Under the pieces are notes generated by a model. That model searched no databases. It was not told the DNA's origin and saw nothing but the letters and a program-made list of their open reading frames with translations. Source: a virus. From it: DNA of 53,451 nucleotides. Location of the stretch: positions 1 to 53,451 of the IMG/VR virus record IMGVR_UViG_3300030333_004406. One strand, given 5' to 3'. Positions 713 to 50,290 of this stretch are shown here, piece by piece; position 1 is the stretch's first letter, and the number at the start of each line of letters is the position of its first letter. The position numbers were made by a program, and so were the translations under genes.

Positions 713-1108
713 TTATTGAAATTTATTTAATATTATTGTATCAACAGAGTTTTGTATAGTTTTTCTATCAGCTTCTAATTGAAACATTATATTAGGATTG
801 AATCTTACTTTTTCTACTCCGTTGTCAAAAATAATAACAGTTGGAATACCTGTTATATTATACTTAGTTTGTATATCGGAGTTAGCCATTATATCTAATC
901 TATACGATTCACACTCTTTTAATTTGTTTAACTCAGCGAATTGATTGGTTTTATTCCAATCAGCCCAAAATTCCACAGCAACAACATCTTTTGCTATTCG
1001 CTCTTTAAAATCACCATTAATAAAAGTTTGACCTTGAGCAACACCACATCCAAAAGCAAGTATCATTAATAAAATATAAATGTAATTTGATATATCTATT
1101 TTAATCAT
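713..1108 (-). CDS. Exported thioredoxin-fold protein lacking the CxxC active site
   Basis: The first 27 residues form a hydrophobic export signal (YIYILLMILAFGCGVAQGQ), possibly cleaved after AQG or retained as an anchor, so the protein is expected in the periplasm or on the membrane. The rest follows the thioredoxin plan: a beta strand VVAVEFWADW, a later strand YRLDIMANSD, and the cis-proline region TGIPTVIIFDNGVEKVRF. Where thioredoxins have WCxxC this protein has WADWNKTNQF, so both redox cysteines are missing and disulfide exchange is unlikely. It may instead act as a binding or scaffold domain. It is the last gene of the minus-strand operon. Its start overlaps the upstream stop as ATGA, implying coupled translation. 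The fold is confident; the role is unknown. Confidence 0.7.
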   Translation of the reverse strand: MIKIDISNYIYILLMILAFGCGVAQGQTFINGDFKERIAKDVVAVEFWADWNKTNQFAELNKLKECESYRLDIMANSDIQTKYNITGIPTVIIFDNGVEKVRFNPNIMFQLEADRKTIQNSVDTIILNKFQ

Positions 1109-1864: not shown

Positions 1865-2518
1865 TTACTTTGAATAATAGATTTTCCCATTCTCTATATA
1901 CAAACCCTTTCTTACCAAAACCGCTTGTCCTTTGATATTATATATTACACTATTTTGAAGTGATTTATCTATTACTTCCATAATACTTGAATTACAAGGT
2001 AAACCTGAATCACAATCAATATATTCTACTATTTCTTCATATTGTATTTCTATAATAGTATCATACTCAATAACTGGTATTTCAATAAATAACGTATCCA
2101 ATATGTCATCGTATACAATAATCGTATCAGTTTGATATATATAATCAATTTCAACGATCGTATCGTATTCAATTATTGTTTCATATATCGTATTATATAT
2201 TGTATCAAATAATGTTTGATATTCAATTATTTCAACAAAAACCGTATCACATTCTGGTAACGGTGGAGCACAATCTTCTGGTGAAGTAGGTTCAGCTTCA
2301 TTTTCATCAGAAGCGTCAACACAGTCTTCCCACCCATCATTCAACCAAGATGTTTGTACGCACCCCATAGGAGAGTATTGAGTCCAATTTGCTGGATCAT
2401 CTCCACAATAAAAACCATTAGCCTCAGCGCAGTCTAAACATAATTGCTGAAAGTCGTATCCTTGCGCATTGACGAACGAGCCAATAAACGCAAATAGTAT
2501 TATAATATATTTCTTCAT
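1865..2518 (-). CDS. Secreted LDLa-like protein with T9SS-type C-terminal tail
   Basis: An N-terminal Sec signal peptide MKKYIIILFAFIGSFVNAQ is of the flavobacterial type. It is followed by a Cys-rich segment (about residues 26-80) ending in WLNDGWEDCVDASDEN. The pattern C-x-D-x-S-D-E is the calcium-binding signature of LDL-receptor class A modules. A long middle region (about 90-165) repeats EYDTI/VEI-type units rich in Asp, Thr, Ile and Tyr, probably extended beta or linker. The last about 30 residues, IYNIKGQAVLVRKGLYIENG and onward, resemble the T9SS sorting domain of Bacteroidota secreted proteins, where KGLYI-x-NGK is characteristic. The protein is therefore predicted to pass the inner membrane by Sec and the outer membrane by the host T9SS. 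It sits beside an outer-membrane barrel gene. The function is not known; adhesion or receptor masking is a guess. Confidence 0.65.
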   Translation of the reverse strand: MKKYIIILFAFIGSFVNAQGYDFQQLCLDCAEANGFYCGDDPANWTQYSPMGCVQTSWLNDGWEDCVDASDENEAEPTSPEDCAPPLPECDTVFVEIIEYQTLFDTIYNTIYETIIEYDTIVEIDYIYQTDTIIVYDDILDTLFIEIPVIEYDTIIEIQYEEIVEYIDCDSGLPCNSSIMEVIDKSLQNSVIYNIKGQAVLVRKGLYIENGKIYYSK

Positions 2519-2535: not shown

Positions 2536-2823
2536 TTATTTTTCATCTTTTTGTTTAGGGGTTATTGGTTTTACGGTACCATCTTCGTTTAGTTCAATTT
2601 CACTTTCCCAATTAGGATTATTCTTACGATACTCTGTAACTTGTTTTTTCTTTTCTTCCCATGATAACTTGTTACCATCAGGATCTGTAGCACCATGCAA
2701 ATCCCAAGCTTTTTTAGCATCTGCATCCTTTTTGTCAGTTATTCTCTGTTGTTCTTCTTCAGGAAGATTTGTCTCTTTTTTAAAAGGAAAACTCCCTTCG
2801 TTATATTTCATTTTAAAAGCCAT
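2536..2823 (-). CDS. Small charged protein with FKMK/KKETN N-terminal motif
   Basis: A 95-residue highly charged protein with no recognised domain. The N-terminus MAFKMKYNEGSFPFKKETN shares the FKMK...KKETN pattern with the protein at 51525-51911, and MAFKM/MAFKL with the proteins at 51125 and 51522, nearly 50 kb away. The remainder is predicted helical and Lys/Glu-rich, with WDLHGATDPDGNKLSW in the middle and a proline/lysine-rich tail. It starts 2 bases after the preceding stop. I do not recognise a function; the shared N-terminus suggests a common localisation or packaging signal. Confidence 0.6.
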   Translation of the reverse strand: MAFKMKYNEGSFPFKKETNLPEEEQQRITDKKDADAKKAWDLHGATDPDGNKLSWEEKKKQVTEYRKNNPNWESEIELNEDGTVKPITPKQKDEK

Positions 2824-3878: not shown

Positions 3879-4006
3879 TTTCCTTGTCCTTTATATAATT
3901 TTTTATAGTTCTTACTTTTTTTAAGAGTTGACGTTTTAGACTTAGCGTGAACTCCTTTTCTTTTTGTTCGTTTCTTTTTTTCAAAAACGTATACTAATCT
4001 AGCCAT
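3875..4006 (-). CDS. Tiny basic protein, 43 aa
   Basis: Between the barrel gene and the DUF5675 gene is a 43-codon frame beginning MARLVYVFEKKKRTKRKG and ending YKKLYKGQGK. It begins at an ATG that overlaps the upstream TAA (TAATG) and its TGA overlaps the downstream ATG (ATGA), so both ends are translationally coupled, which strongly supports it as a real gene. About 40 percent of residues are Lys or Arg, with GVHAKSKTSTLKKSKNYKK in the middle. I recall similar HAKSKTS...SKNYKK...GQG peptides in other marine Bacteroidota phages. It probably binds nucleic acid or an acidic partner, or is packaged, but its role is unknown. Confidence 0.75.
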   Translation of the reverse strand: MARLVYVFEKKKRTKRKGVHAKSKTSTLKKSKNYKKLYKGQGK

Positions 4007-4503
4007 TATATAGTCTTATATTTTATTGTAACTTCCTCTCCACAATCAATAGCCTTTGCTATCTTGGGATATATTCTCTTATACGCTTGAGTTGATTTAC
4101 CTATAAAACCGTCCTTCGTGATTTGGTTGTTTTCTTGGGAGTCGCCAACGAGGAGACAGCCAGCTGTATGCTCATCGGTATTACCACAATGTATAAGAAT
4201 ATACTCAAAACCAGGCACATCAATAACGTGAAGCATGCCAATATGAATGTCTGGAAACCTCTTACTATACCTTTGATGATATCCACCTTCTTTTCTAAGA
4301 TCCAGCTTATAAGTTCCATTAGGAATTCTTGTCTCGCCATATATTTTTTTATCTCGTTGTTCATCTTCTAATGTGTATGCTAAAAATTTTCTTTTACATC
4401 TAAAACCCTCACCATGAGGATTGTTTGCTGTTCTATCTAGTTCCAATAACATACCATTGGTACTGTCAGTGCCACTAGAGAATCTAATTACTTCTAATTC
4501 CAT
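4006..4503 (-). CDS. DUF5675-family protein, putative lysis-related enzyme
   Basis: This 165-residue protein carries the DUF5675 pattern: RKFLAYTLEDEQRD, then GETRIPNGTYKLDLRKEGG, a SKRFPDIHIGMLHVIDVPGF strand pair, and the conserved ILIHCGNTDEHTAGCLLVGD block, where His, Gly-Asn, Thr and Gly-Cys are family signatures. The HxGN...TxGC arrangement recalls the His/Cys active site of YkuD-like L,D-transpeptidases, and family members are common near phage lysis genes. No other peptidoglycan hydrolase is obvious in the window, so it is the best endolysin candidate. No signal peptide is seen. A hydrophobic 87-codon frame (4101-4364) overlaps it in another reading frame. Confidence 0.7.
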   Translation of the reverse strand: MELEVIRFSSGTDSTNGMLLELDRTANNPHGEGFRCKRKFLAYTLEDEQRDKKIYGETRIPNGTYKLDLRKEGGYHQRYSKRFPDIHIGMLHVIDVPGFEYILIHCGNTDEHTAGCLLVGDSQENNQITKDGFIGKSTQAYKRIYPKIAKAIDCGEEVTIKYKTI

Positions 4504-48481: not shown

Positions 48482-48735
48482 TCTACTAGAACTATGTCTC
48501 TCGCACGTATAACCCTGTACATGTTGTCTTTATATGCTATATCGTGTCCGGCAGCTCCATCATAGTATATAGAATCACCTTTCTTAACTATAGGCACATC
48601 ATTTCCAATAGATATTATATTTGCTTTTCTGTATCTATTTGACTCATCTGTCTCATCTGTTAAGATTAAACCTCCAACCTTCTTTGGTCCTTCTTTAATT
48701 ATATCAACTATAACGTAATCATTAATTGCTTGCAT
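48478..48735 (-). CDS. groES: GroES-like co-chaperonin, roofless short form
   Basis: GroES caps the GroEL ring and encloses the folding chamber. This 85-residue protein has the N-terminal strand YVIVDIIKEG, the mobile loop VGGLILTDE (GGIVL type, here GGLIL) that docks to GroEL, the GNDVPIVKKGDSIYYD turn, and a C-terminal strand YRVIRARDIVLVE. Where bacterial GroES (about 97 residues) has a long hairpin forming the dome roof, this protein has only a short NDVPIVKKGD turn, so the roof appears to be missing. Its start codon lies inside the last codons of groEL (14-base overlap). The order groEL then groES is the reverse of bacterial operons. It is likely matched to the phage GroEL; host GroEL use is also possible. 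Confidence 0.85.
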   Translation of the reverse strand: MQAINDYVIVDIIKEGPKKVGGLILTDETDESNRYRKANIISIGNDVPIVKKGDSIYYDGAAGHDIAYKDNMYRVIRARDIVLVE

Positions 48736-50290
48736 CTGGTATTCTTATATTTGAAATTACACAATCTGCTGACATGATAGTTAAAGCTACACTTACAGCA
48801 TTTTTAAGTGCAGATTTAGTTACTAATACTGGATCAATTATTCCTTCTTTAATCATGTTAGGAAATGTTCCATTTACAACATTACAACCATATCCTTCTT
48901 TCATATTACTAGGATTCATAGATAATCCAGCGTTATCCATTATAGTTTCATATGGTGAAGACAATGCTTTTAACAACACTTTACCGGCTAGTCCGGTCGA
49001 AATTTTTTGAGAAGCATTTAATAAGGCTATTCCACCTCCTGGTACTATACCTTCTTTTAATGCTGCTTTTGTTGCAAATATACCATCTTCAACTCTATCT
49101 TTCTTTTCTTTTAACTCAACTTTAGAATTAGCACCAACTTTAATCATACCAACGCTTCCAGATAACATAGCTAATCTTTGCTCTAGTTTCTTTTTAATAT
49201 ATCCATTTTTCTCTTCAGCTAATTTCTTATTTAACTCATCTATTCTACCCTCAATATTCTCATTCATTCCTTCTAGTGTTAAAACTGTTGTTTTATCGTC
49301 AGTTATACTAGATTCAGCTTCACCCAAGTGTTCTGGTTTCATGAGATCTAAATCATCACCCAACTCCTCGTTAAGTACTGTAGCTCCGGTTAATATAGCT
49401 AAATCCTCAGTTGCGTCTTTTTTAGTAGGACCAAAACCTGGTAAATCTATAATATTAACTTTAATATTACCTTTAACTTTGTTCATCATGAGTGCCGACT
49501 TTACTGATTGCGCAACTGGTGCTATTATAAGTAAAGATCGGTTATTTTTTATAACGTGTTCTAATATGTTTTGTATTTTTCTTATATTAGGTATTTCAGA
49601 TGAACATATAAATACTAGCGGGTTGTCCAATTCACATGTATATTTCTCAGTATTTGTTACAAAATGCGGAGATGTTAATCCACAATCAACCTGAACGCCA
49701 TCCACAATGTCAACGTAAGTGTCCTCAGTTGGAGATTCTTCCATAAGCACAACTCCATCTTTGCCAACCTTCTCGTATGCCTCTGATATTATATTACCTA
49801 ACTCCTTATCATTATTGCATGATATAGAACTAACAGATTGCAACATGTCGCCCTCTACGTCAATTGCTATACTATTTAAATAGCTAATGACACTATCTAG
49901 TGTTTCATTTACTCCATCTTTAATTTCTCTGATTGTAAGACCATCTGCGATCGCAGTGTCTATTTGTTTGATTAGTGCTTCAGCTAAAACTGTAGCAGTT
50001 GTTGTGCCATCACCAGCTTCTTTGACTGTATTTCTAGCAGCTTCTTTTATTAAGGTTGCCCCCATGTTTTCAACCGGATCATATAAGACTACGCTTTCCG
50101 CAACGGTTACACCATCTTTTGTTATGACCGGTTTGCCCCTCCCGTCCTCGTAGACTACGCACCTTCCTGATGCACCTAAAGTGGACTTTACGGCTCGGGC
50201 TAATTTATTCACGCCGGTGATTACCTTAGCTTTAGCATCATCGCCAAAGCTAAGATCTTTCACCAACTCACTTGGTAAGTTGTATTCCAT
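48722..50290 (-). CDS. groEL: GroEL-like chaperonin (phage-encoded)
   Basis: Chaperonins fold proteins in an ATP-driven ring in the cytoplasm. The protein is 522 residues (E. coli 548). Conserved: FGDDAKAKVITGVNKLARAV; ITKDG (D59, equal to D52 of E. coli); GDGTTTATV (D94, equal to D87); apical segment LIIAPVAQSVKSALMMNKVK and PGFGPTKKDATEDLAILTG; and VEDGIFATKAALKEGIVPGG near 405-420, giving the third ATPase Asp. So the ATPase should work. The usual nucleotide-site LGPKG is changed to LGASG. The GGM-rich C-terminal tail is absent: it ends RIPDASN. It is immediately followed by an overlapping short groES. Phage GroELs are known but a full ring pair in the virion gene block is unusual. Start chosen as the first ATG, giving the normal N-terminus. 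Confidence 0.9.
   Translation of the reverse strand: MEYNLPSELVKDLSFGDDAKAKVITGVNKLARAVKSTLGASGRCVVYEDGRGKPVITKDGVTVAESVVLYDPVENMGATLIKEAARNTVKEAGDGTTTATVLAEALIKQIDTAIADGLTIREIKDGVNETLDSVISYLNSIAIDVEGDMLQSVSSISCNNDKELGNIISEAYEKVGKDGVVLMEESPTEDTYVDIVDGVQVDCGLTSPHFVTNTEKYTCELDNPLVFICSSEIPNIRKIQNILEHVIKNNRSLLIIAPVAQSVKSALMMNKVKGNIKVNIIDLPGFGPTKKDATEDLAILTGATVLNEELGDDLDLMKPEHLGEAESSITDDKTTVLTLEGMNENIEGRIDELNKKLAEEKNGYIKKKLEQRLAMLSGSVGMIKVGANSKVELKEKKDRVEDGIFATKAALKEGIVPGGGIALLNASQKISTGLAGKVLLKALSSPYETIMDNAGLSMNPSNMKEGYGCNVVNGTFPNMIKEGIIDPVLVTKSALKNAVSVALTIMSADCVISNIRIPDASN

Follow-up and report, generated by a model that had tools for sequence, protein, structure and literature searches.

A predicted type IX secretion cargo and its outer-membrane barrel partner in a family of phages

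Does a small phage gene encode a protein that is carried to the outside of the cell by the host's own secretion machinery? The question is raised by the IMG/VR virus record IMGVR_UViG_3300030333_004406, analysed here as a window of 53,451 bases (the whole stretch of DNA), in which an initial annotation had described one open reading frame (ORF), of 217 amino acids (aa), as a phage protein apparently made for the type IX secretion system (T9SS) of a flavobacterial host. That annotation listed a Sec signal peptide, an LDLa-like calcium site, a repetitive linker and a KGLYIENGK-type tail resembling a T9SS sorting domain. Our analysis makes it likely that the gene encodes cargo for the host T9SS; together with the gene for an outer-membrane beta-barrel, it may form a surface module of late infection.

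Phage-encoded proteins with T9SS sorting domains have been reported before, in a Cryophage (Bellas et al. 2020, PMC7468147) and in crAss-like BACON phages (PMC6949934). There, an annotated T9SS domain is found on enzymes, PA14 or BACON proteins, whereas the family described here combines an LDLa-like domain with a short tail and is always accompanied by a barrel gene. What is new is a putative minimal tail signal that standard models miss, a cargo family with an LDLa-like head, and an obligate phage outer-membrane barrel as partner.

A family of secreted proteins with a short C-terminal tail

When 2.9 million viral contigs in IMG/VR were scanned, 39 relatives of the cargo were recovered, at 43-88% identity, and purifying selection was evident throughout the protein, with ratios of nonsynonymous to synonymous change (pN/pS, 27 pairs) of 0.17 in the signal peptide, 0.23 in the N-terminal domain, 0.11 in the linker and 0.16 in the tail. 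The ORF is a real gene, above chance. Mean column identity is 55%, and the positions invariant across 38 sequences are Q19, the cysteines of the N-terminal domain, the calcium-site acids, Y193, G197 and I208; full-length relatives span 185 to 310 aa, with a linker that varies greatly in length. Homologues were absent from 50,697 annotated cultured-phage records, scans against Pfam, NCBIfam and PHROGs for a known family returned a sub-threshold LDLa match alone, and we found no published account of the family in the open-licence literature. Weak matches to HBL fell within the acidic repeat and were rejected as composition artefacts.

The predicted signal peptide, MKKYIIILFAFIGSFVNA, is followed by Gln, as expected from the Bacteroidota Q-rule, in which the signal is cleaved before this residue (PMC5837995, PMC10653852). 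A small residue followed by Gln stands at the expected place in 119/120 family sequences, and Sec export with signal cleavage is, on this pattern, strongly supported for the cargo, in agreement with what had been proposed. An N-terminal Sec signal peptide is also a defining feature of T9SS cargo with short signals.

At the other end of the protein, the KGLYIENGK-type sequence does lie at the extreme C-terminus. Scanning with the tail alone gave 91 loci, of which 80 were kept, every one a member of the cargo family, and in 80/80 viral homologues the tail ends at most three residues from the stop. Three motifs can be recognised in it: motif B (Y193-G197), motif D (G-L-Y-I, 205-208) and motif E (a basic residue and the last strand). 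In the AlphaFold 2 (AF2) model the tail has strands at residues 192-194, 205-209 and 212-216, forming a three-stranded sheet, with a predicted local distance difference test score (pLDDT) of just 64-71.

This arrangement resembles the short T9SS signals of Prevotella intermedia, which are 40-55 aa long and whose cleavage and glycosylation mass spectrometry has demonstrated (Ye et al. 2025, PMC11969387); they contain motifs B (Tyr, Gly), D (GxY, Ile) and E (basic) and are predicted to form a single three-stranded sheet (PMC11969387). The phage tail shares their size, motif order and predicted three-strand form, and has a predicted S/SI cleavage site where cleavage in P. intermedia occurs near Gly-Ile (PMC11969387). 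The P. intermedia signals are proven in a cellular Bacteroidales host, whereas the phage version is flavobacterial and known from sequence. Motifs B, D and E, within the C-terminal 40-55 aa and running up to the stop, are present in the phage tail in a relaxed form: a short C-terminal domain (CTD) motif was matched by 81/81 unique tails, compared with 0.2% of shuffled tails, having been adapted after the tails were inspected, with Ser permitted for the Gly of motif D and a relaxed position for motif E.

Cellular proteins with comparable C-termini were found in Flavobacteriales. A profile built from phage tails only gave 11 matches in 399 genomes of this order, 10 of them within the final ~70 residues of an ORF, and nine of these ten proteins have a visible signal peptide; the matches include canonical domains as well as short tails, such as IEEM...MYDLLGRELKEAPFRQLYIQNGKKLFRIE. 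Six of the tail-bearing genomes carry 71-105 TIGR04183 matches each. In 395 phylum-wide genomes the same profile gave a background of 6 matches, none of the C-terminal secreted type; these are chance matches, and the phage profile thus does not reach the short signals of Bacteroidales directly. HHalign aligned phage tails with cellular short tails at a probability of 97.5% (E 8e-12), a comparison that is partly circular because the cellular tails had been found with the phage profile, and aligned the cellular short tails with 40 canonical T9SS domains from one genome at a score of 26.2, where the highest of 100 shuffles reached 14.4. Separately, a set of small secreted proteins of Flavobacteriales (L140-L156, L164) was observed to end in short T9SS-like C-termini of the form YDLLGRE...QLYIQNGKK.

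Compared with the type A T9SS domain (TIGR04183/PF18962), the phage tail has the same C-terminal motif order and a weak similarity that passes through the cellular short tails. The canonical domain is 70-100 aa long, with a PNP start and seven strands, whereas the phage tail has no match in the libraries. The proposal of a T9SS sorting tail is supported: the likeness to short signals and the indirect chain of profiles favour it, although the curated T9SS profiles do not recognise it. Overall, the sequence comparisons support the tail as a T9SS signal, and with it the predicted passage of the cargo through the host T9SS, and short signals of this kind appear to occur outside Prevotella as well.

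As the initial annotation had it, the host is likely to be a flavobacterium, since the phage terminase is nearest to those of Flavobacterium and Cellulophaga phages. Its closest match is one spring-water phage, at 62.5%, followed by Flavobacterium elemo phages at ~45%; Cellulophaga phages are among the more distant ones. Neither the tail nor the cargo/barrel pair was seen in the examined stretches of an elemo phage and the Manatee Spring phage.

The LDLa-like head and its acidic stalk

Behind the signal peptide lies a Cys-rich domain in which the segment CVQTSWLNDGWEDCVDASDE matched PF00057 at E = 0.0037 and 17.9 bits. We term it LDLa-like because this score is under the curated threshold of 24.1. 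PF00057 was matched by 35/38 cargo members, with a best E of 4e-4. The domain has the calcium-site pattern of LDLa, W-x-x-D-G-x-x-D-C-x-D-x-S-D-E, and its predicted acidic ligands, D61, D65, D68, D71 and E72, are invariant in the 38 sequences. Every member has Asn (WLNDG) in place of the fourth Cys of LDLa (W-x-C-D-G), and the final Cys is displaced, departing from the six-Cys spacing; the phage domain also adds an N-terminal C-x-x-C and a GFYCGDDPxNWTQY segment. Structural comparisons, which used the whole cargo model rather than its C-terminal part by itself, gave nothing significant with Foldseek, where weak LDLa matches stood at E 2.9-9.5, and a single row with VIA, to megalin (Z 2.2 over 41 residues). 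Sequence and structure are thus weakly consistent with an LDLa identity. The calcium site that had been proposed retains its acidic pattern, though not the fourth Cys nor a score above the PF00057 cut-off, and from that pattern we infer that the N-terminal domain binds calcium.

Of 84,980 species genomes of bacteria and archaea that were scanned, a Crocinitomicaceae genome yielded the one cellular relative of this domain, its gene surrounded by ordinary chromosomal genes. The protein contains two tandem copies of the LDLa-like domain together with Kazal-like and PKD-like segments, and it ends in a canonical T9SS domain, so that the N-terminal domain has been placed independently on a protein of T9SS type.

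The head is joined to the tail by a linker which, as had been noted, is repetitive, and is also acidic, with 19 D/E and 0 K/R in 74 residues.

An obligate barrel partner and a possible role at the host surface

The gene for the partner barrel lies on the same strand as the cargo gene and upstream of it in 39/39 loci, and the cargo gene follows in 30/30 barrel loci whose downstream sequence extends for 1 kb or more. The barrel is the better conserved of the two, with a mean column identity of 77%, and it combines a Sec signal and a C-terminal aromatic residue with the amphipathic strands of an outer-membrane beta-barrel. Its AF2 model (predicted template modelling score, pTM, 0.70) has 12 long strands, and its best matches in structure were outer-membrane barrels, with Foldseek at E 7e-6 and with VIA at Z 14.8 to Tsx. 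No homologue was present in the 50,697 cultured-phage records. In a simple scan, Q-rule-type signals were found in just three ORFs of the window, those for the cargo, the barrel and a thioredoxin-fold protein, which form one cluster.

Taking the reading of the gene as T9SS cargo, a sequence of events can be proposed. During infection the host Sec machinery would export the cargo, and signal peptidase would expose its N-terminal Gln. The tail of ~40 residues would then act as a short type-A-like signal, with SprA and a shuttle carrying the cargo across the outer membrane, where it would be cut near S/SI and then become attached or stay on the surface. The LDLa-like domain, probably folded around calcium, would in this way be displayed at the tip of an acidic stalk whose length varies, and the phage barrel would serve as the functional partner of the cargo, whether by anchoring it, by being its dedicated shuttle or by acting alongside it at the surface; we infer such a display of the head together with the barrel. 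The outcome would be a late change to the outer surface that blocks progeny from rebinding to the cell as it dies and to its debris, or blocks further phages.

A surface change late in infection is the most likely job of the module because it adjoins tail-fibre and lysis genes. That this change prevents recapture of progeny or excludes other phages is a tentative proposal made by analogy. The closest working analogy is Llp of phage T5, which is encoded beside the gene for the receptor-binding protein and acts on the outer-membrane receptor. The masking of receptors or assistance to virions, put forward in the initial annotation, is plausible.

Several points weigh against the cargo reading. 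The T9SS profiles of NCBIfam and Pfam (TIGR04183/PF18962), a search that the initial annotation had set as the check on its proposal, match none of the 38 members even at E <= 10; these curated models describe a signal of 70-100 aa, in contrast to the ~40 aa of the phage tail. Compared directly with canonical domains, the phage tails score 19.07, a borderline value against 18.97 for the best shuffle, and the link between the two passes via intermediates that the phage profile itself retrieved. Some members have Ser for the Gly of motif D, and the basic residue of motif E is not absolute. Short signals with experimental demonstration are confined to Prevotella, with none in flavobacteria. Evidence on the host and on its T9SS is indirect, and the surface role is based on gene neighbourhood and analogy. 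The two T9SS models also gave no match in a six-frame translation of the window. Three related phage records contain weak matches to TIGR04183, which lie outside the cargo protein, in a structural ORF of 2,200 aa and in a 98-aa ORF lacking a signal peptide, and were discarded as chance.

Could the phage bring its own shuttle? In flavobacteria, type B T9SS cargo need a cognate PorP/SprF barrel, often encoded by a neighbouring gene, for secretion and anchoring (PMC12618676, PMC9143113), and the strict pairing seen here recalls this arrangement, as does the size of the barrel, 350 aa against 304-323 aa in example PorP/SprF proteins. If the phage barrel were a dedicated PorP/SprF-like shuttle and anchor, the two genes would make up a complete cargo-shuttle pair, a refinement that is compatible with the cargo reading. 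On the other hand, the barrel did not match PF11751 at E <= 10, and HHalign against 29 PorP/SprF proteins gave a probability of 30% over 35 columns, slightly above block shuffles, so that sequence does not support a PorP/SprF assignment. PorP-like proteins are 14-stranded (PMC9143113), in contrast to the 12 long strands modelled here, and the tail resembles type A, whose shuttle is the general PorV, rather than type B. In Flavobacterium johnsoniae the barrel gene likewise adjoins the surface cargo gene (PMC12618676, PMC9143113), although it is downstream there and upstream in the phages. The phage barrel is not clearly homologous to PorP/SprF, and the resemblance to type B pairs is therefore one of arrangement, not of membership. 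We regard the dedicated-shuttle refinement as doubtful, and think it similarly questionable that the phage repaints the host surface by supplying a minimally tagged T9SS cargo along with a shuttle or anchor barrel of its own.

Less probable still is export by Sec only, to the periplasm or outer membrane, with the tail as a small structural element such as a dimerisation or barrel-binding hairpin. The cargo would then cooperate with the barrel from within the periplasm, for example in disrupting the outer membrane at lysis. The failure of curated T9SS profiles fits such a role, as do the invariable presence of the barrel and the adjoining DUF5675 gene and overlapping transmembrane ORF, which resemble a lysis module. 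In several relatives, however, the lysis genes change position while barrel and cargo stay paired, and other neighbours (nuclease, DUF5675, transmembrane ORF) relocate or drop out; in addition, the tail profile specifically retrieves secreted proteins at their C-termini, from genomes with abundant T9SS cargo, and the sole cellular relative found for the N-terminal domain is itself T9SS cargo. That the cargo belongs to the virion, as an adhesin or an accessory protein of the tail, as its position beside tail-fibre genes might suggest, is very improbable, given a conserved cleavable Q-rule signal that would remove it from the cytoplasm, where virions assemble, and the absence of any PHROG structural match.

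The family is carried by marine viruses that probably infect flavobacteria, and its constant pairing with a barrel suggests that the host exterior is redecorated. If this is correct, many marine flavobacterial phages use the outer-membrane secretion machine of the host to display a phage protein. In Bacteroidota little is known of the mechanisms of virion release or surface exclusion, and the pair would be a definite candidate for one of them, open to direct testing. Short T9SS signals would also extend past Prevotella, into flavobacteria and viruses, and would be overlooked by standard annotation.

Other features of the locus

The positions of the features discussed are collected in Table 1.

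Table 1. Features of the phage window, with the cellular relative of the N-terminal domain in the last row
Feature	Position	Strand	Remarks
Predicted T9SS-like secreted cargo gene, 217 aa	2518..1865	-	ORF with 39 viral homologues, under purifying selection
Predicted Sec signal peptide	2465..2518	-	Residues 1-18, Gln at +1 (Bacteroidota Q-rule)
Cys-rich LDLa-like domain	2249..2461	-	Residues 20-90; PF00057 sub-threshold, acids invariant
Acidic repetitive stalk	2018..2248	-	Residues 91-167; DT[IV].E.EY units, variable length, low pLDDT
Putative short T9SS-type C-terminal signal	1868..1987	-	~40 aa from predicted S/SI cleavage site
Outer-membrane beta-barrel, 350 aa	2826..3878	-	Obligate partner; Q-rule signal peptide, C-terminal Phe
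Small ORF between barrel and cargo genes	2536..2823	-	Not conserved among most relatives
Thioredoxin-fold protein	713..1108	-	Signal peptide, no CxxC; PF00085 E 3.5e-7; kept in most loci
DUF5675 gene	4006-4503	-	Encloses 87-aa ORF in another frame
Transmembrane ORF, 87 aa	4101-4364	-	Within DUF5675 gene, other frame
ORF of 3,978 aa	10999-22935	-	Small segment only matches PHROG phrog_12810 and polynucleotide kinase family
Phage-encoded GroEL	48722-50290	-	GroEL also in elemo phages
Crocinitomicaceae relative of N-terminal domain	L075:4956-8372		1,138-aa secreted protein, canonical T9SS domain at C-terminus

One further observation concerns the ORF of 87 aa that lies within the DUF5675 gene. 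A counterpart, usually of 81-90 aa, occurs in nearly all relatives that bear DUF5675, and an open run of this length was kept by just 19/2000 synonymous shuffles. On these two grounds the ORF is probably a real overlapping gene, of holin-like type.
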